The notes: generated by a model not told the origin, from the letters alone. Numbered from the stretch's first letter, positions 30,090 to 38,802 are shown. The stretch: DNA of 38,802 nucleotides from Anaerolineae bacterium (GCA_016788625.1 JAEUQX010000260.1:1-38802); one strand, 5' to 3'. Made by a program: numbers and translations.

Positions 30090-30881
30090 ATGCGCGTCGA
30101 AACCAACACTCCGCTCATCAAACGCAATCGCCGCAATGCGAACTACCTGTTCTTCTTCAGCATTGCCGTGCTGGTCGCTGGTTTCCTGCTGGCGAACCTT
30201 CAGCTTACGGCAACTGATGAGACCGGACTGGCGCTGGCGGTCTTCCTACCCTGGTTGATCCTGCCTGTTGGCTTCATTGCCACGCTGGCTTCGGTACGAA
30301 TGACAAACCTGTGGCTGCGCCGCCCGCGTCCGGAGACGGTAATTCAGGAAGGCTTGAAGGGTATCAGCAACAAGAGTGTGCTGTACCACTATTACCATTT
30401 CCCTGCGCGGCATGTGCTGATCGCTCCACAGGGTGTTTTCGCCATGATTACGCGCTTCCAGGAAGGGCGCTTCAGCGTCGAAGGCGACAAGTGGCAGACT
30501 GCGGGCGGGCCGTTCGGGCGTGTCATGCGTTTTCTGCGGCGCGATGACATCCGCAACCCTTCGGAAGAAGCACGACTGGCAGCGGAACATGTCAAGAAAC
30601 TGATCGGAGCGACCCTGCCGGATGTCGAGGTGCAACCGCTGGTGATCTTCGTGGACCCCCGCGCGCAGCTCAACATCACCAACCCGACAGTGCCAGTACT
30701 GTTCGCGGACGACAACAAAGAGCCAAACCTGCGCGATTACATGCGCGACATCGCCGCGCAGATGCAGCAGGACAAGCAGCCACAGACACAACCCAAGAAA
30801 AAAGGTGAGAAAGAGAAACCCAAGAGCGGCGCAAGCGTAGAAGCCATCGCCGAGGCGCTGGAAGCCGCAACGATCCTTTAG
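30090..30881 (+). CDS. Two-span membrane protein with NERD-like domain
   Basis: 263 aa. Two membrane helices (residues 18-38 and 46-68) anchor a cytoplasmic domain (81-220) that resembles the nuclease-related (NERD) fold: HVLIAPQGVFAMITRFQEGRF in part, a GDKW turn, NPSEEARLAAEHVKKLI and VEVQPLVIFVDPRA. In NERD proteins the strand after GVF carries a Glu and a Lys (vIExK); here those places read ITRF, so the catalytic pair seems absent. The C-terminus is Lys/Gln-rich (QPKKKGEKEKPK), likely disordered. It lies 2 bp before the GT39 gene, so translation is coupled. It may be a non-nucleolytic scaffold. Family assignment is moderate. Confidence 0.7.
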   Translation: MRVETNTPLIKRNRRNANYLFFFSIAVLVAGFLLANLQLTATDETGLALAVFLPWLILPVGFIATLASVRMTNLWLRRPRPETVIQEGLKGISNKSVLYHYYHFPARHVLIAPQGVFAMITRFQEGRFSVEGDKWQTAGGPFGRVMRFLRRDDIRNPSEEARLAAEHVKKLIGATLPDVEVQPLVIFVDPRAQLNITNPTVPVLFADDNKEPNLRDYMRDIAAQMQQDKQPQTQPKKKGEKEKPKSGASVEAIAEALEAATIL

Positions 30882-30883
30882 CC

Positions 30884-32890
30884 ATGCAACGACTTTTCCC
30901 GCTGGTCATGGTGGTCGCAATCACCATGATCGGCGCTTTCCTCCGCTTTCATGATCTCGCCCAGGTGCCCCTACGCGGCGACGAAGCATTCACCGTGCTG
31001 TATTGGGCACGCCAACCCCTGAACGTCTCCCTCACGCAGACGGCGACGATTGAACCGCATCCCGTATTGACTTACGCGATCTTTCACGGCTGGGGGCTGG
31101 CGACAGGTACGAGCGCATTCACTATGCGACTGCTGCCCGCCCTGGTGAACCTGCTGGGCATTCCGGCAGTTTATGTGTTGGGCAGGCGGCTGACAAAGAC
31201 CGCTGGGCGAGCAGAGGGAGTAGGATTGCTGGCAGCGCTGCTGTTTGCGCTGCATCCATTCGAGATCTGGCACGCACAGGACGCGCGCAACAATGCGATC
31301 TGGGCGGGACTGAGCGCCGCGACCATGTGTATCGGGGTCATGGCGCTGGAAAAACCGTCACGGCAGCGCTGGACGCTGTATGGCCTGTGCGCAGCCCTGA
31401 CGGCCAATATGTTTTACTTTGAGCTGCTGTTCCTCACGACCTTTGGCGTGTACGTCTTCCTGGCACGGCGCAGGCAGTTCCGAGAATGGGTGATGGCTGC
31501 ATTGCCAGCGTTCGTGACATCAATTGCATCATTCGTTATCCTGCAAGGTGCTCTGATCGCGTCGGGCAGCTACGCGGGCACCATTGCCAGCCGCTTCGAC
31601 TTTAATCTGCTGCTTTCTACATTTCTGCCTGTCCTCAGTTTTGGGGAGACGCTGCCAGCAGACGTGTCGAGCGCGCTGTGGCCGTTCATCATCTTGGCGC
31701 TGGTCGCGGGATTGCTGGCGCAAAGCAAGCTCACCCCCCTATCCCCTCTCCAAAGGGATAAGGGGAGTCAAGATACTATGGACGCACAACACCCTGGAGA
31801 ACTCCGTTCCAAGCGATTGTTCCTGCCCATCATGCTGCTGCTGCCAGTTGTGCTGTTCAGCGCCGCGGCACTACGCTTCAACATCTTCACGCCGCGTTAT
31901 CTGCTGCCACTCGTGCCGATCATGATTCTGATCTTCAGCGGGTTGGTCATCGGGCTGTTGCAACGCGGGTGGCACAGACGAGATGTATCGCGTCCCCTCA
32001 GTGCATCACGATTGAATCGCGGCATAGCTTTGGGCGGGATAGCGCTGCTGATCGGCTGGCTGAGCGTGACCGCAAGCACGCTGAACAACTATTACACCGC
32101 TCCTGCCTATGCGAAATCGCGCGACTGGCCTGCGCTGACCGAGTACCTGGCCGCGAACGTCAGCGCCGATGACCTGGTGATTCAACTATCAGTCGATTCG
32201 GCCTTTGGGTTCTACTACAACGCCGCTGCCGATGACATCGCCCTGCCCGGCTACCCAACGCAGCCCGCCGACGAGATCCGTGCCATTCTGGCGCGGGAAG
32301 CCACCCAACGGCGCAGCATCTGGATCGTCGGGCAAAGCTTTCCGGACTGGCCGAGCGCGGGCATTGTTGAGGATTGGCTGCAAACGCACATGCAGAGTGG
32401 GCGCGCGGGCGTGGCCGCAGATCTGAACTACCGCCAGTTTGTGACCTGGGATGTCGCACCCGGCGAGACGGGAAACGTGCTGGCGACGTTTGGCGAGGTA
32501 GCCGAGTTAGTTGGCTATCAGGTTTTCCTCCCCCCTGCCCCGTCGGGTCATCTGACTGTGTGGCTGTACTGGCGGCCTGTTTCGAGCAGCGAAAAGCCAC
32601 TCAAGGTCTTCGTGCATCTGCTGGGCGAGATCAACCCGCAGACCGGGACGCCATTGTGGTCCCAGGATGACCAGTTCCCCCAGGATGGCCTCATCAACAC
32701 AGACTCGTGGGAAACTGGGCGCGTCTACCGCGACATTTACACGCTGCCGCTGGCAGATGTACCGGGGGGTGAATACATGCTGCATGTGGGATTTTATGAC
32801 CCTGACACCAACGAGCGGCTGACTGCTGGTGAAAGTGACAGCTATCCACTGCGCGACCTGACGGTGAACGTGCAAAAGTCCACAAAATAA
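30884..32890 (+). CDS. GT39/PMT-type glycosyltransferase carrying an in-frame palindromic repeat
   Basis: 668-aa membrane glycosyltransferase. RGDEAFTVLYWAR at residues about 31-43 gives the acidic pair of the first outside loop, followed by HPVLTYAIFHGWG. About 11 membrane segments reach residue ~395. The C-terminal ~130 residues are a beta-rich soluble domain (LTVWLYWRPV, GEYMLHVGFYDPD). Residues 283-295 (LTPLSPLQRDKGS) lie in a hydrophilic loop and are encoded by a palindromic element, so the repeat has entered the coding frame without breaking it. Start codon is 2 bp after the NERD-like stop with no separate ribosome site. Sugar donor and acceptor unknown. Confidence 0.82.
   Translation: MQRLFPLVMVVAITMIGAFLRFHDLAQVPLRGDEAFTVLYWARQPLNVSLTQTATIEPHPVLTYAIFHGWGLATGTSAFTMRLLPALVNLLGIPAVYVLGRRLTKTAGRAEGVGLLAALLFALHPFEIWHAQDARNNAIWAGLSAATMCIGVMALEKPSRQRWTLYGLCAALTANMFYFELLFLTTFGVYVFLARRRQFREWVMAALPAFVTSIASFVILQGALIASGSYAGTIASRFDFNLLLSTFLPVLSFGETLPADVSSALWPFIILALVAGLLAQSKLTPLSPLQRDKGSQDTMDAQHPGELRSKRLFLPIMLLLPVVLFSAAALRFNIFTPRYLLPLVPIMILIFSGLVIGLLQRGWHRRDVSRPLSASRLNRGIALGGIALLIGWLSVTASTLNNYYTAPAYAKSRDWPALTEYLAANVSADDLVIQLSVDSAFGFYYNAAADDIALPGYPTQPADEIRAILAREATQRRSIWIVGQSFPDWPSAGIVEDWLQTHMQSGRAGVAADLNYRQFVTWDVAPGETGNVLATFGEVAELVGYQVFLPPAPSGHLTVWLYWRPVSSSEKPLKVFVHLLGEINPQTGTPLWSQDDQFPQDGLINTDSWETGRVYRDIYTLPLADVPGGEYMLHVGFYDPDTNERLTAGESDSYPLRDLTVNVQKSTK
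31730..31767. repeat. Palindromic repeat inside the GT39 coding sequence
   Basis: Begins CTCACC and contains inner arms TATCCC (31740-31745) and GGGATA (31755-31760), with outer arms CCCC (31735-31738) and GGGG (31762-31765) separated by one mismatch. The C-rich then G-rich layout, with little protein-level reason, resembles dispersed palindromes in Chloroflexota. Its edge matches that of the intergenic element at 4208-4259. Confidence 0.65.
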
Positions 32891-32893
32891 GAA

Positions 32894-32913
32894 GGCGCGA
32901 GATACCCCGCGCC
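32894..32913 (+). terminator. Candidate hairpin terminator after the GT39 operon
   Basis: GGCGCG (32894-32899) pairs with CGCGCC (32908-32913) over an 8-nt loop, 4 bp after the stop codon, between convergent genes. There is no clear U-tract (CAACTTTC follows), so it could be factor-dependent or inactive. Confidence 0.35.
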
Positions 32914-32942
32914 CAACTTTCAGTTCACGATTTAAGCAGCGA

Positions 32943-34025
32943 CTACATCTCGCTGAGGCGTTTCTGCCATTTTTCAACCAATCGGTTATAAACGGCTTCG
33001 GAAAGCTCGCCCTTCGCCAGCTTCATGTCGAGGTTGTCGAGCAGCGCCTGCACCTCTTCTTTCGTCTGCGGATTGTCCGAAACGGGCGCAGCGGCCTGTT
33101 CAGCGGGTCGATTGCCCTGCTGGTTCTGCATCATCTGCATCATCATCTGCTGCATCAGCATTTGCTGCTGTTGCAACTGCTGCTGCATAGCCGCCGCTTC
33201 CGGGTTCATGGTCGCGCCAAGCGCCTGCCCGACACCGAAGCCAACACCCGCGCCCGCCAGCGCGCCGCCAGCGCCAGGATTAGCCGCCGCCGTTTGGGCG
33301 ATGTTCAGCTTCTGGACGCGTTCCCAGATGTCCAGGCTGACGTAGTTACGCAGCTCATCCAGCGGCACATCCTTTGCGGTGAAGGGATTAGACTCAAAGG
33401 CCTTGATGCGAAGACCGAGCGCCTGGAACTTCTCATTGACCTTGACCAGCATCGCGCCTTCGATGTCGCTCAGGACATTGTTGGCGGCAGGAATGCTCTG
33501 CGCGCCAGATGCGGAGATCAAACCGGAGATTTCGCCGAGCAGCATAGCCTGAATGCGGTCACGGATGCTGTCCAGACGCAGCACAGACTTGCCGACGGCA
33601 TACTGCTTGACGAACAGCAGCGGATCATCCACACCAATGTCGATGACGCCGTGCGTGATCAGCAGGACGACACCAAGCCCCTTGCCGGGGGTTTCCATGA
33701 CGATAGGTGTGCTGGTGCCCCAGCGTACCTGCGGCATGTCTTTGAGGTTGACAAAGTAGAGATCCGCCGTGAAGGGGGTACGCCCGCTGGTCGCCAGCCC
33801 AATCAGGCCGGATAGAATAGGCAGGTTGGCCGTCGAGAGTGTGTGCCGACCGGTCTTGAGCACGTCCAACACCTGCCCGCCGCGCACGAATACCGCGACC
33901 TGGCTCTCTCCGACGATGACCTGCGATCCCATGCGGAAATCGCCGCTGCCCTCCTGTGGTTCGCGGTAAGCAAATTCATCGTCACCGACATTAGTATGAT
34001 CAACGACATCAATAATGCGAGGCAT
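32943..34025 (-). CDS. SPFH-domain protein, YdjI ('virion core protein') family
   Basis: 360 aa, no signal peptide or obvious membrane helix. Residues about 25-245 form the SPFH/band-7-like domain of the YdjI type: SQVIVGESQVAVFVRGGQVLDV (part), GRHTLSTANLPILSGL, WGTSTPIV and the SIRDRIQAML segment. A glycine-rich hinge and a Gln/Met-rich stretch (about 279-308, MMMQMM) follow. The end has a SHOCT-like helical hairpin (LAKGELSEAVYNRLVEKW). Strong AAGGAG ribosome site 7 nt before the ATG. Last gene in a four-gene operon. In Bacillus subtilis YdjI acts with PspA and the zinc-ribbon protein YdjG at membranes, so a membrane-stress role is inferred. Confidence 0.85.
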   Translation of the reverse strand: MPRIIDVVDHTNVGDDEFAYREPQEGSGDFRMGSQVIVGESQVAVFVRGGQVLDVLKTGRHTLSTANLPILSGLIGLATSGRTPFTADLYFVNLKDMPQVRWGTSTPIVMETPGKGLGVVLLITHGVIDIGVDDPLLFVKQYAVGKSVLRLDSIRDRIQAMLLGEISGLISASGAQSIPAANNVLSDIEGAMLVKVNEKFQALGLRIKAFESNPFTAKDVPLDELRNYVSLDIWERVQKLNIAQTAAANPGAGGALAGAGVGFGVGQALGATMNPEAAAMQQQLQQQQMLMQQMMMQMMQNQQGNRPAEQAAAPVSDNPQTKEEVQALLDNLDMKLAKGELSEAVYNRLVEKWQKRLSEM

Positions 34026-34068
34026 GTCTATCTCCTTGAAATGATCAACTCAACAAACTGGCGAGCAG

Positions 34069-34602
34069 CTACGACAGGCTCTTGTCGAGGCCGGTCAGCA
34101 CATCTTCGCGCAGGGAAAAGGCGTCATTCGCTTCGACAGTCACCTGATCAAGCGCGCTGATCGCCTCTGCAATCCCATCTTTAGCATTCACAGCGCTTTC
34201 CAAGCCTGTCAACGCGGTGTCGAACTGGTCGAGGTAACGCACCTGAGCTTCATCAAAGCTGTAAAGCTTCTCCATCTCCTCTGCACCGATCTTGATGGCG
34301 GCGAAGAAACCGGAATAGCCGGGCACGGCCGCGGCGACACGATCACGGTACAGTTGCAGCTTCGTCTTGGCACTTTGCGTCTTTGTCATGAAGGACAAAC
34401 CGCCGTTATCAAGCAGTACCTTCTCAATACGCACGAGACGCGCGACGCGCTGCGAGAGTTGATCAGCAATGTGGTCACGCAGCAGTCGGTCTGCTGAACG
34501 GCGCGCCTTATTGTCAACGTATCCCTTGAATCCTGGCAGCCTGGCGACCAACCGTTCAAAAGACCCTCGTTCGCTTACGATACGATCATACAATTCAGAC
34601 AC
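34069..34602 (-). CDS. Conserved-looking alpha-helical protein of unknown function
   Basis: 177 aa, almost entirely helical and charged, without membrane segments or signal peptide. Notable features: LYDRIVSERGSFERLVARLPG at the N-terminus (given in part), an Arg-rich helix KARRSADRLLRDHIADQL, and two later helical hairpins with GFFAAIKIGAEEMEKLY. Start is GTG at 34602 with AAGGA 7 nt upstream; the nearby ATG at 34607 is out of frame. It lies between the SPFH gene and the zinc-ribbon gene. In the Bacillus pspA-ydjGHI operon the coiled-coil protein PspA accompanies the other components, so a structural analogue is possible, but no PspA similarity is visible. Confidence 0.75.
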   Translation of the reverse strand: MSELYDRIVSERGSFERLVARLPGFKGYVDNKARRSADRLLRDHIADQLSQRVARLVRIEKVLLDNGGLSFMTKTQSAKTKLQLYRDRVAAAVPGYSGFFAAIKIGAEEMEKLYSFDEAQVRYLDQFDTALTGLESAVNAKDGIAEAISALDQVTVEANDAFSLREDVLTGLDKSLS

Positions 34603-34673
34603 ATCTCATCCTTTCCACTTGTAGACTGTGCGCGGACACAGCCTTGCCATGTCCCCACTTTTGATTTCAGAGA

Positions 34674-35186
34674 TCAGGATAGAAAGTACTCTGTCCCACA
34701 GAATTTGCAGGTGACTACTCCCTTGCCAACCAGTTGAATGTCACCGTTGCAGTTCTTGCACTGCTGCAAGCCGCGCAAACTGCCCGCATCCGATGAATAG
34801 ATGACACCCTTCTCCCAGTTTACGTAACCGCTGAAAACCTGCAACCCCACTAATTGGTGTATCAGCGAGCGAACTTTGTCCGCGCTGACCTTCATTTCGA
34901 GCGCCAGGTCGGAGACAGCCACTTCGCCATGACTCTTGACGATATCGAGCAGTTGACGCTGCTGCTGCATCTCGGACTCTTCCAGCGCCTCACGCCCACC
35001 GATGACGACCAGGTAAATGCCCGCGCCAACCAGGATAGCGACAGGGATAAAGGCGATACCCGCGCCAATCAGGATGCCCCCTGCGCCGACCTGCTGTGCC
35101 TGAACGGCCAGCCACAATCCGGCAATGATGGCGATGCCAAAACCGATGACAATCAGGATGATGCCGACCAAACGTCCCGTATTCAC
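34674..35186 (-). CDS. Two-span membrane protein with winged-helix domain and C-terminal zinc ribbon
   Basis: 170 aa. Two membrane helices (7-27 and 36-62) with a short glycine-rich loop, then a winged-helix-like segment at 77-130 (LLDIVKSHGEVAVSDLALEMKVS in part, KVRSLIHQLVGL), and a zinc ribbon with C143, C146, C160 and C163. Start is GTG at 35186 with GGGAGG 8 nt upstream. The winged helix and zinc ribbon suggest DNA, RNA or protein binding at the membrane. Cluster position resembles YdjG, the zinc-ribbon membrane protein of the Bacillus pspA operon, though the sequence is much shorter. Function not known. Confidence 0.78.
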   Translation of the reverse strand: MNTGRLVGIILIVIGFGIAIIAGLWLAVQAQQVGAGGILIGAGIAFIPVAILVGAGIYLVVIGGREALEESEMQQQRQLLDIVKSHGEVAVSDLALEMKVSADKVRSLIHQLVGLQVFSGYVNWEKGVIYSSDAGSLRGLQQCKNCNGDIQLVGKGVVTCKFCGTEYFLS

Positions 35187-35231
35187 TCCGGAAACCTCCC
35201 GTGTTTTGAGTGTGAGCTATGTCGAGATGGG

Positions 35232-37148
35232 TTAGCCAAAGCCGCGACTCCCGCCACCGCTGCCACCCCCGCGCGATGACCCACCGCCGCTCCAACTGCG
35301 TCCACCGCTGCTCCAACGCCCGCTGCTGCCGCTTGTTTGCTGCGGCTGGCTGGTCATGACCGACGAGGCGGAAGACAACAGGGTCGTCAGACTGTTGGAG
35401 ATATTGTTGAGACCAGCGGACATCTGCCCCGAAAGATCGCCGAGCGAGAAATCGGCGTCTGCGCGCGCCAGATCGCCGGGGAGACGCTGTGCCCCACCCC
35501 AACCCGGCAGCGGCGTGCCCGCGGTGTAACCGCCGCCCCAGCGTCCGCCCATGTAGGTTGGATAGTACCAGCGTGGAACTGGCACATTCGTTAGTTGGCT
35601 GAAACGCCGAATCCACGAACGCTCGATGCCAAAAGCAACGGCATATGGCAGATAGGCTGCGAACTGTGCGCCGGCTTCCTGTACGTCGGCGTACTTCTCC
35701 AGGTTGCGCAGATATTCGAGGAATGCACGCCACTTGGCGGCTTCTTCAGCGCCCTTGCGCGTCTTGGCGGGCATGGCTTGCCCAAAGGCGATACCCAGGA
35801 GGCCGACCACGCCGAGCGCGGCAGGGATACAAAACAGCGCGCCCGTGATGGCTGGGCTGAGTTCATACATGACAAACAGCCCGATGCCAGCAATGACCAA
35901 CAGCAGGATGCTCAGGCCAATCCACGTCCAGCGCGTAGTGTTGGGGTTACTCCTGAACAGCTCGTCCTTGACGACCTGCGCATACAGATCCTGTTGCAGA
36001 TAGGGGATGACCGCATAAAAGGAATTGCGAAGCGATTCGAGCGTGCGTTCCGGGCGGGTGGCGAAAAGCGAATTGAGCATTCGTTTCTCGAACAGCTTCA
36101 GATCATCAGCGACCTTATCGGTACGTTTGAAGGTGAACTCACTGGTTCGGCCAAAGCCCAAGATTCCTTCGCGCTGGTTCTCTTCCAGCACCAGATAACC
36201 GCGCTGCGCGAGGTCAATGAGGATGGAGATTACATCGCGCACATCAGCGATCTCGTCCAGCAGCGTACCGACTTCCGCCGGACGTAGATCACTGGGCGGC
36301 TCGGTCAGATACTGCGGAACGGGGCCAACGCGCGGATCGCGTCCGCGTGTGTACCACAGCGCGTACAGGCCAAAACTGCCGCCAAGCAGCAGCAGTATGG
36401 ACAGCGCTATCGCCCCCAACGTGAGCAGCGGACCAACTGTCTGCTGGCGATCAAAGGCGGCCTGCCATAAGGCAACGCGTGCGGAAGGGCTGTGCGGGTA
36501 CTGCACACGAATCTCGAAAGATTCGCTGCCCGTGATAGCCTGTTCAGCAACTGCTGTGATCGTCGTGCCGCTCACGGACACGCGGGCAGGCACGCCATAC
36601 GTTTCAACCGGATCAAGACCTTCGCGCGGGGCAAAACCGGGCGGCATCTGGACGGTGACGGTACTGTCGCCAACCGAGAAACCATAGCGATCAGATGGAA
36701 CTGCAATCCAGTAGAGCTGGTCGCCGCCTTCGTAAACGCGCAGCGCGCCGATGACCGTGTAGCGGATTTCGAACTGCTGCGCGGAGTCTCTGATTGGCTG
36801 GCTGAAATAATACGTGACCGAAAGCGCGTCCGCGCCGAGTTCCGCGCAGAATGTGCCGGGTGTACCAGAACAGCTTTCGCGCAGCGGCTGCCCGGCTTCC
36901 AGCACCTGCACGCGCCGGATGTCCTCGATATTATTCAGTGGAACGACCGCAGATCCAAAGGTAAACGTTCCGGAAAAATCGATCTCATATTGCTCGGAAA
37001 CATCAAAACGATTGTTGGCGGTATCGATGTTATCGATGTGCACGTTCCACTGCCGCCAGAACACCGAGCGCGATTGAGCAGTGACGGCACTTGCAAGGCC
37101 GAGCAGCACAGCAGTCAACGTCAGCAGCAATCCCAGACGAACGCGCAT
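35232..37148 (-). CDS. DUF2207-family membrane protein
   Basis: 638 aa. Signal peptide at 1-24 (MRVRLGLLLTLTAVLLGL, cleavage near TAQS). An extracellular beta-rich domain (about 25-225) follows, then a membrane helix (LGAIALSILLLLGGSFGLYAL), a cytoplasmic winged-helix-like region (VGTLLDEIADVRDVISILIDL in part), a pair of hydrophobic helices around ILLLVIAGIGLFVMY, and a Gly/Ser-rich tail (GGGSSRGGGSGGG) typical of DUF2207 proteins. The start at 37148 has GGAGG 5 nt upstream; the open frame extends to 37280, but that part is Cys-rich and lacks the signal peptide. First gene of the four-gene operon. Biochemical function unknown. Confidence 0.85.
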   Translation of the reverse strand: MRVRLGLLLTLTAVLLGLASAVTAQSRSVFWRQWNVHIDNIDTANNRFDVSEQYEIDFSGTFTFGSAVVPLNNIEDIRRVQVLEAGQPLRESCSGTPGTFCAELGADALSVTYYFSQPIRDSAQQFEIRYTVIGALRVYEGGDQLYWIAVPSDRYGFSVGDSTVTVQMPPGFAPREGLDPVETYGVPARVSVSGTTITAVAEQAITGSESFEIRVQYPHSPSARVALWQAAFDRQQTVGPLLTLGAIALSILLLLGGSFGLYALWYTRGRDPRVGPVPQYLTEPPSDLRPAEVGTLLDEIADVRDVISILIDLAQRGYLVLEENQREGILGFGRTSEFTFKRTDKVADDLKLFEKRMLNSLFATRPERTLESLRNSFYAVIPYLQQDLYAQVVKDELFRSNPNTTRWTWIGLSILLLVIAGIGLFVMYELSPAITGALFCIPAALGVVGLLGIAFGQAMPAKTRKGAEEAAKWRAFLEYLRNLEKYADVQEAGAQFAAYLPYAVAFGIERSWIRRFSQLTNVPVPRWYYPTYMGGRWGGGYTAGTPLPGWGGAQRLPGDLARADADFSLGDLSGQMSAGLNNISNSLTTLLSSASSVMTSQPQQTSGSSGRWSSGGRSWSGGGSSRGGGSGGGSRGFG

Positions 37149-37182
37149 CATTTCCTCCGGCACGATACAATAAACGGTGTGG

Positions 37183-37191
37183 ATTATAGCA
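37183..37191 (-). promoter_or_regulatory. Extended -10 promoter of the DUF2207/SPFH operon
   Basis: Minus-strand TGCTATAAT (37191-37183), 35 bp before the start codon. No -35 match at 16-18 bp. The identical nonamer precedes yajC at 26911. Confidence 0.6.
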
Positions 37192-37284: not shown

Positions 37285-38802
37285 ATGCGCTTTCAACGAG
37301 TAGTGGCGACATGTTTGATTGGAGTCTGCCTGTTCGCGGGAGTAGTGGTCAGCGCTCAGGATGTTACGCCCGAAGTGACGGCTGAAGCCCCCGCAGAAGT
37401 AACGGCTGAAGCAACAGCCGAAACGACCAGCGAAGCGTTGACTTCTGCTCCGGCAGAGGTCGTCGCGCCCAGCCCTACCCCGGCAGGTGTGCAATATGTC
37501 GTTCGGTCGGGTGATACGCTGTTCCGCATCGCGGTGCGCTTTGGCACAACCGTGCGCGCGCTGGTCGAGGCAAACAATATCACCAATCCCTCACTGATCT
37601 ACGCTGGGCGAACACTGGTCATTCCGGGCGTCACGGCCACTCCGACGCCAACCGCAGCCCCGACACAGGCACCAACCAGCACGCCCGTGACCGAACCGAC
37701 AACCACCTACGTGGTGCGGCGCGGTGACACACTCTACCGCATCGCCATCAACAACCGCACGACGATCAGCAAGCTGGTGGCACTGAATAACCTGCGTAAT
37801 CCGAACATGATCTACGTCGGTCAGCGACTGCTCGTGCCCGTCGTAAGCGGCGGCAGCGCGGCGGCCCCAGCGATGACGCAGGCGCCAGCGGCAGCAATCA
37901 GCGGACAGGGTGGCGCAGCGGTTGGTTATGGCTTCGAGTATGGCATTGAAGCTTACGTGTTCGGGCAGGATATCAGCGCAATCACGTCTGATGTTCAGGC
38001 GCTGGGCACGAAGTGGGTGAAAGTAACAGTTAACTGGCGCGATTTCGAGCCGGAAAAAGGCGCGATTGAATTTGCATCGCTGGACGAAGTTGTCAGCAGT
38101 CTGAACGGCGCTGGACTGAACGTTCTTCTGACGATAACGACTTCCCCGGCCTGGGCGCGCAGCAACGTGGACGAGAGCGGCCCGCCGGACAACTTCTCTG
38201 ACTATGCCACATTCGTCGGTGCCGTGGCGGCGCGTTACACGGGGCAAGTACAGGCCTACCAGGTCTGGAATGAACCGAACCTGCGGCGCGAATGGAACAG
38301 CAGCGTTCATCAGATCAGCGGCGCAAGCTATGTACAGCTGCTCAATGCCGGCTACAGCGCGATCAAAAGCGCGGACGCCAACGCCGTCGTGATCAGCGCG
38401 GGTCTTTCGCCGACTGGTTTCAACGACGCCGTAAACGCCGTGAGTGATCGTCAGTTCTTACGCGATATGTACGCGAGCGGGTTGGCGAACGTCAGCGACG
38501 CGGTGGGCGCGCACCCGCTCGGTTGGGCGAATCCACCCGATGCGCAGTGCTGCGCGGCTCCGGTCGGCGTGGAGACGCACTACCAGGACACGAGTTTCTT
38601 CTTCCGCAATACCTTGCAGGATTATCGCCAGATCATGAGCGCAGCGGGCGACGGCAGCACGCCGATCTGGGTGACAAAGTTCGGTTGGGGCACGAGCGAG
38701 GACACTGCCGCGCCGCCGGAGTCGCTGGTCTATCTGACCTATACGACACTGGGCGAGCAGGCGATTTACGACCCGCGCGGCTTTGAACTGGGGGCAGAAC
38801 TG
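37285..38802 (+). CDS. Secreted LysM protein with GH39/GH5-like catalytic domain (3' end cut off)
   Basis: 506 codons are visible and the gene runs off the right edge. Signal peptide at 1-25 (cleavage near VVSAQD). A low-complexity Ala/Glu/Thr stretch is followed by LysM 1 (YVVRSGDTLFRIA to TLVIPG, about 71-115), a T/P linker and LysM 2 (YVVRRGDTLYRIA to RLLVPV, about 141-186). From about 215 a TIM-barrel glycoside-hydrolase domain begins (GTKWVKVTVNWRDFEP). The acid/base motif is VWNEPN with E330. The strand that normally carries the nucleophile glutamate (VTEFGW) reads VTKFGW, K465. AAGGAG lies 9 nt upstream of the ATG. Likely peptidoglycan- or polysaccharide-bound at the cell surface; activity is doubtful. 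Confidence 0.88.
   Translation, partial: MRFQRVVATCLIGVCLFAGVVVSAQDVTPEVTAEAPAEVTAEATAETTSEALTSAPAEVVAPSPTPAGVQYVVRSGDTLFRIAVRFGTTVRALVEANNITNPSLIYAGRTLVIPGVTATPTPTAAPTQAPTSTPVTEPTTTYVVRRGDTLYRIAINNRTTISKLVALNNLRNPNMIYVGQRLLVPVVSGGSAAAPAMTQAPAAAISGQGGAAVGYGFEYGIEAYVFGQDISAITSDVQALGTKWVKVTVNWRDFEPEKGAIEFASLDEVVSSLNGAGLNVLLTITTSPAWARSNVDESGPPDNFSDYATFVGAVAARYTGQVQAYQVWNEPNLRREWNSSVHQISGASYVQLLNAGYSAIKSADANAVVISAGLSPTGFNDAVNAVSDRQFLRDMYASGLANVSDAVGAHPLGWANPPDAQCCAAPVGVETHYQDTSFFFRNTLQDYRQIMSAAGDGSTPIWVTKFGWGTSEDTAAPPESLVYLTYTTLGEQAIYDPRGFELGAEL

Follow-up and report, generated by a model that had tools for sequence, protein, structure and literature searches.

PspA-type membrane repair is ancient, but little is known of how it is anchored in bacteria other than the model species. 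The Bacillus pspA-ydjGHI operon is transcribed from a stress-inducible sigma W promoter. In Bacillus subtilis, PspA and YdjI, a soluble SPFH protein, depend on the membrane proteins YdjG and YdjH for reaching the membrane (PMC8581546). DUF4178 proteins have previously been reported in PspA operons (PMC11237479), and a Streptococcus mutans mutant lacking a DUF2207 protein (SMU.243) was sensitive to acid and peroxide (PMC10457818); we found no paper linking DUF2207 with PspA and SPFH. Here we describe a four-gene operon at positions 32943-37148, minus strand, of a 38,802-nucleotide stretch of Anaerolineae bacterium DNA (GCA_016788625.1 JAEUQX010000260.1:1-38802), hereafter the window. The window corresponds to contig C240 in a Chloroflexota metagenome assembly of 6.6 Mb, and its relatives carry the labels Anaerolineae/Aggregatilineales in public records. 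The operon encodes a DUF2207 membrane protein, TMZ (a protein combining two transmembrane (TM) helices with a winged helix and a zinc ribbon), H177 (a helical protein of 177 aa), and an SPFH protein. Related operons place H177 among the partners of PspA, a membrane-repair protein, and not as its substitute. We lean slightly towards reading the operon as a membrane-maintenance (envelope-stress) complex, a variant of the PspA/SPFH systems that lacks pspA and in which H177 would be the adaptor between base and scaffold.

Comparison with described systems

In both the window operon and pspA-ydjGHI, a YdjI-family SPFH protein (PF13421) is accompanied by two membrane proteins, one bearing a zinc ribbon and the other a Gly-rich tail, and neither YdjI nor the window SPFH has a TM helix. 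The preliminary description of this DNA, made from the window sequence alone, had already proposed the likeness, which is now reinforced by three sister operons (L107, L249, and L250) holding PspA together with an SPFH protein that ends in a YdjI-style zinc ribbon, and also by the PspA-bearing loci L154-L157. The two operons nonetheless differ in content and architecture. The window operon has no pspA and has H177 in addition. DUF2207 stands where the TPM-domain YdjH would be, and the TMZ zinc ribbon is C-terminal, behind a winged helix, an architecture that differs from that of YdjG. The window SPFH ends in a Gln/Met-rich stretch and, judged by eye, a SHOCT-like helical hairpin, where YdjI has its zinc ribbon. 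The promoter found here belongs to the extended -10 class.

Two further systems share single parts with the window. The SMU.243 locus has a DUF2207 protein and an extended -10 promoter, but it adjoins uppP, and no association with SPFH or H177 has been reported for it (PMC10457818). The DUF4178 proteins of PspA operons (PMC11237479) have the H177 helical domain in common with the window and adjoin PspA in Chloroflexota, whereas the window H177 has neither the DUF4178 part nor a TM helix.

H177 shares a helical domain with PspA partners

A second group of Chloroflexota proteins has two TM helices as in TMZ (profile E 1.6e-16), a helical domain, and a C-terminal DUF4178 (PF13785, E 1e-14 to 1e-21). 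H177 aligns with this helical domain over 123 columns (hhalign E 8e-7, score 45.8), compared with scores of 25.6 for the best of 200 heptad-block shuffles, none of which reaches E 1e-3, and 19.5 for the reversed control. In four genomes (L154, L155, L156, and L157), pspA lies directly 3' of the gene for such a protein, usually with DUF2207 upstream. DUF2207, the 2TM-H177like-DUF4178 protein, and PspA stand together in L156 and L157; L154 is without DUF2207, and in L155 the middle gene is broken in the assembly. More widely, this protein family is found in L154-L159 and L166-L169, often behind DUF2207.

The operons L107, L249, and L250 bring H177 itself next to PspA, with the order TMZ, H177-DUF4178 fusion, PspA, and SPFH. 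Their fusion proteins match the H177 model at E 4e-27 to 7e-30 and the DUF4178 model at E 5e-9 to 2e-13, Pfam itself making no DUF4178 call in them, and their PspA proteins match PF04012 at E 2e-48 to 6e-45. In the SPFH tree, these PspA-bearing operons form one clade (support 100/99); the base of the tree is not resolved, so the tree does not decide whether pspA was lost or gained. A plasmid search with the H177-DUF4178 protein found none. Because of the profile match and the pspA-adjacent fusions, H177 is best taken, at the level of sequence, as the helical domain found in a PspA partner, minus its DUF4178 and TM parts.

The preliminary description had called the 177-aa protein (34069-34602, minus strand) unrecognised, which stands as far as Pfam is concerned, where H177 has no match, but not for NCBIfam. 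The family NF047596 (LIMLP_15305, from Leptospira) matches H177 over its full length (E 1e-11), at 45 bits against a 210-bit cut-off, and all 33 of the 33 H177 homologues match it likewise. Full-length similarity and the sub-cut-off score together identify H177 as a homologue, not an equivalog, of this family from a different phylum. The AlphaFold2 model (pLDDT 84; helices 31-66, 69-91, 107-140, and 144-170) packs ~150 residues into a compact bundle of four helices and looks unlike a long hairpin. Foldseek and VIA-align returned only generic four-helix bundles as neighbours (IncA, Z 13.5; V-ATPase c; talin R13), a level that such bundles reach by chance, and a known fold was not assigned.

Conservation and co-occurrence

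ORF calls recover the four same-strand genes in the order DUF2207, TMZ, H177, SPFH, with successive gaps of 45, 71, and 43 bp, as the preliminary description had it (43-71 bp). H177 is present in 50 of the 61 genomes of the window's own order. Among 41 loci from 41 genomes of that order, the full set occurs with the same order and strand in 26, TMZ-H177-SPFH in six, and H177-SPFH only in nine, and the SPFH gene adjoins H177 on its 3' side and on the same strand in every one (41/41). A scan of named genomes, run with a TMZ profile and hence biased toward TMZ-bearing loci, gave 80 loci, 53 of them with the full set and two with TMZ-H177/DUF4178-PspA-SPFH. Far from rarely occurring together, the four genes keep an order conserved far beyond chance. 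They form one conserved operon, predicted to encode a membrane-bound protein complex.

The association of H177 with SPFH extends beyond gene order. In a set of 301 Chloroflexota genomes, SPFH is also found in 42 of the 44 with H177, even where the genes lie apart, and a strong SPFH match in the absence of H177 is limited to three further genomes. Co-occurrence holds even in one Anaerolineae family where the two genes are not neighbours. Xanthine-dehydrogenase-type genes beside H177 in Anaerolineae family f9 were dismissed as local neighbours only, SPFH lying elsewhere in those genomes. A DUF4126 membrane protein is encoded near TMZ-H177-SPFH genes at L102:3681-4259 (plus strand; Pfam), and one similar by eye at L250:1861-2436 (plus strand).

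PspA is distributed differently. It is absent from the window operon, two PspA-family genes lie elsewhere in the window's own genome, and it is undetectable in 32 of the 44 sampled H177 genomes (anti-association, Fisher p 5e-4, uncorrected for phylogeny). In those 32 genomes the module would therefore have to work without PspA; in the window's genome a PspA encoded elsewhere may still take part in it. One of the genome's own PspA-family genes, on contig C390 (L130:539-2166, minus strand), lies between a receiver/histidine-kinase gene, which precedes it, and a gene for a 271-aa TM protein with a predicted coiled coil and no Pfam family.

The DUF2207, TMZ, and SPFH proteins

The DUF2207 protein (35232-37148, minus strand; ~639 aa) matches PF20990 (DUF2207_C; E 1.5e-40, 139.9 bits) and PF09972 (E 9e-9, 36.2 bits), both over the cut-offs. 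It consists of a signal peptide, an extracytoplasmic N-terminal domain, TM helices, DUF2207_C, and a Gly-rich C-terminal tail that ends in GSRGFG and is kept as ...GFG in nearly all homologues. A comparison with TPM-type YdjH, suggested in the preliminary description, indicated that the two are not homologous: hhalign aligned 17 columns only, and just the signal peptide once the Gly-rich tails were cut. The tail of DUF2207 (35232-35300, minus strand) and those of the unrelated TPM proteins (L254-L260) are both Gly-rich with a terminal aromatic residue, as GFG or SGSW, and published primers imply the ends SRGSF for YdjH and GGGF for YdjG (PMC8581546). This end, common to DUF2207, TPM, and YdjG/YdjH proteins, is possibly a docking or sorting tail.

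TMZ (34674-35186, minus strand; 170 aa) is the membrane zinc-ribbon protein first described, with two N-terminal TM helices, a PCI-type winged helix, and a C-terminal C4 zinc ribbon (C143/C146/C160/C163), all of them present in the AlphaFold2 model (pLDDT 88). The folds nearest to its winged helix are the PCI domains of CSN2/Rpn6 (COP9 signalosome, proteasome lid) and UFL1/DDRGK1 (Z 7-9.8, rmsd mostly 1.4-2.5, ~70 residues), in line with Pfam signals that are weak and below cut-offs (PCI E 0.002, DDRGK E 0.03). These nearest folds are eukaryotic protein-assembly modules; DDRGK1 is also membrane-anchored, while TMZ adds the zinc ribbon. Since PCI-type winged helices usually join proteins edge to edge, the modelled winged helix of TMZ is more likely to act in protein assembly than in DNA binding.

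The SPFH protein (Band_7_1, YdjI-type; 32943-34025, minus strand; 360 aa) matches PF13421 at E 6e-32 and 111 bits, against a gathering score of 24, and its original assignment to the YdjI family holds. Its alignment has 49 invariant columns. In another Chloroflexota family, a weak SPFH relative at L165:6222-7802 (plus strand) is followed by a Tim44-like-domain protein with zinc ribbons, perhaps another SPFH membrane partner.

Promoter, terminator, and flanking genes

A perfect extended -10 element, TGCTATAAT (37183-37191, minus strand), lies 5' of the DUF2207 gene without a good -35. Of 28 related loci, 14 have the motif TGNTATAAT close to where DUF2207 starts (shuffles predict 0.08), in agreement with the promoter originally placed ahead of the operon. 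The element falls within the longest possible DUF2207 frame, so the likely start is 37148 or the further in-frame ATG at 37151. Directly after the SPFH gene is a terminator-like hairpin, GGGCGCG-GGGT-...-CGCGCC, with the T-rich tail TCTTATTTTG (32893-32914, minus strand). A terminator scan gave hits no more numerous than in shuffles, and the assignment of the hairpin therefore rests on its position.

The flanking genes are on the opposite strand, a LysM/glycosidase-like gene upstream and a PMT_2 glycosyltransferase and a NERD-like gene downstream. These flanks (30090-32890 and 37285-38802, both plus strand) are kept beside the operon, again on the opposite strand, in ~25 of the 41 loci, and the retained neighbours look like plain synteny. 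A defence-system identity for the operon was discarded, as PADLOC gave no match.

Proposed function and alternative explanations

In our model, the topology, the order of binding, the formation of a ring, and the part played in membrane stress are drawn from the analogy with B. subtilis, where YdjG/YdjH recruit YdjI and PspA (PMC8581546). DUF2207 and TMZ would make up the membrane base, DUF2207 exposing a sensing domain on the extracytoplasmic side and its Gly-rich tail in the cytosol, and TMZ turning its winged helix and zinc ribbon toward the cytosol. Because the SPFH protein has no TM helix, it would be recruited to this base from solution and could form a ring or patch oligomer on the inner leaflet. 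H177, probably an adaptor between membrane base and scaffold, would couple the base to SPFH in the window and to PspA or to PspA and SPFH in relatives, PspA joining the complex in lineages that keep pspA in the operon. What we observed directly is the gene content and order, the conservation of the promoter, the homology of H177, the operons with H177 and PspA, and the near-perfect co-occurrence of H177 and SPFH.

Several points weigh against an envelope-stress complex. The S. mutans DUF2207 mutant had no envelope-antibiotic phenotype (PMC10457818). DUF2207-TMZ occurs without H177-SPFH in 19 of the 80 TMZ loci (some truncated at a contig end), and one Anaerolineae family has H177 and SPFH at separate sites, with no TMZ found. 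The co-occurrence counts are uncorrected for phylogeny, and other functions are compatible with Gly-rich tails, winged helices, and zinc ribbons, all of which are widespread. A further step, which we put forward tentatively and consider less probable than the envelope-stress complex itself, is that in Anaerolineae without detectable PspA, H177 and SPFH, with or without the DUF2207/TMZ base, do PspA's job by a different scaffold. With the same reserve, the operon might then represent a PspA-independent inner-membrane maintenance system.

A constitutive platform for membrane-protein assembly or quality control, of the SPFH chaperone type and with no special stress role, is one alternative. SPFH/HflKC-type scaffolds serve proteases and respiratory complexes, chaperone-like roles have been proposed for band-7/TPM partners of PspA (Ravi et al., PMC11237479), and the promoter is a plain extended -10 and not an ECF-sigma site. 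We nevertheless consider such a platform unlikely, as the operon lacks a conserved protease or NfeD-type gene across the 41 loci and its ties with PspA and DUF4178 speak for membrane stress. Less probable still is a signalling module, with TMZ as a membrane-tethered winged-helix regulator and H177 as an adaptor feeding a Ser/Thr kinase. TMZ does carry a winged helix and a zinc ribbon, and at L045:4431-6065 (plus strand) an N-terminal Ser/Thr kinase (Pkinase E 1.7e-52) is fused to H177 in the same operon slot, but this fusion occurs in one of the 41 loci only, and the winged-helix folds nearest to that of TMZ are PCI-type protein-protein modules, not DNA-binding ones. Taken by itself, the single fusion suggests an ability of H177 to recruit a signalling enzyme into the complex.

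The least probable explanation is that H177 is a membrane scaffold replacing PspA, a possibility raised in the preliminary description, and polymerises on the membrane by analogy with PspA/ESCRT-III: H177 does sit in the slot of pspA in DUF2207-2TM-PspA operons, and the anti-association with PspA noted above would fit, but H177 shows no profile similarity to PspA (hhalign E 0.16, probability 0.4; Pfam and PDB sequence searches for PspA/ESCRT-III homology empty), is modelled as a compact bundle, adjoins PspA in the three genomes with both in one operon, and comes from a genome with PspA-family genes of its own. The kinship with PspA/SPFH membrane maintenance proposed at the outset is thus retained, and the PspA-like scaffold is not.

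The envelope-stress complex favoured here is new as a form of PspA/SPFH system without pspA, and H177 as a newly connected PspA-partner domain. Shared operons and domain homology connect three poorly understood families with PspA and SPFH, namely LIMLP_15305/H177, DUF2207, and the TMZ-type membrane protein with its PCI-type winged helix and zinc ribbon, and so give them a testable role. The natural variants with and without pspA could show which part recruits which.

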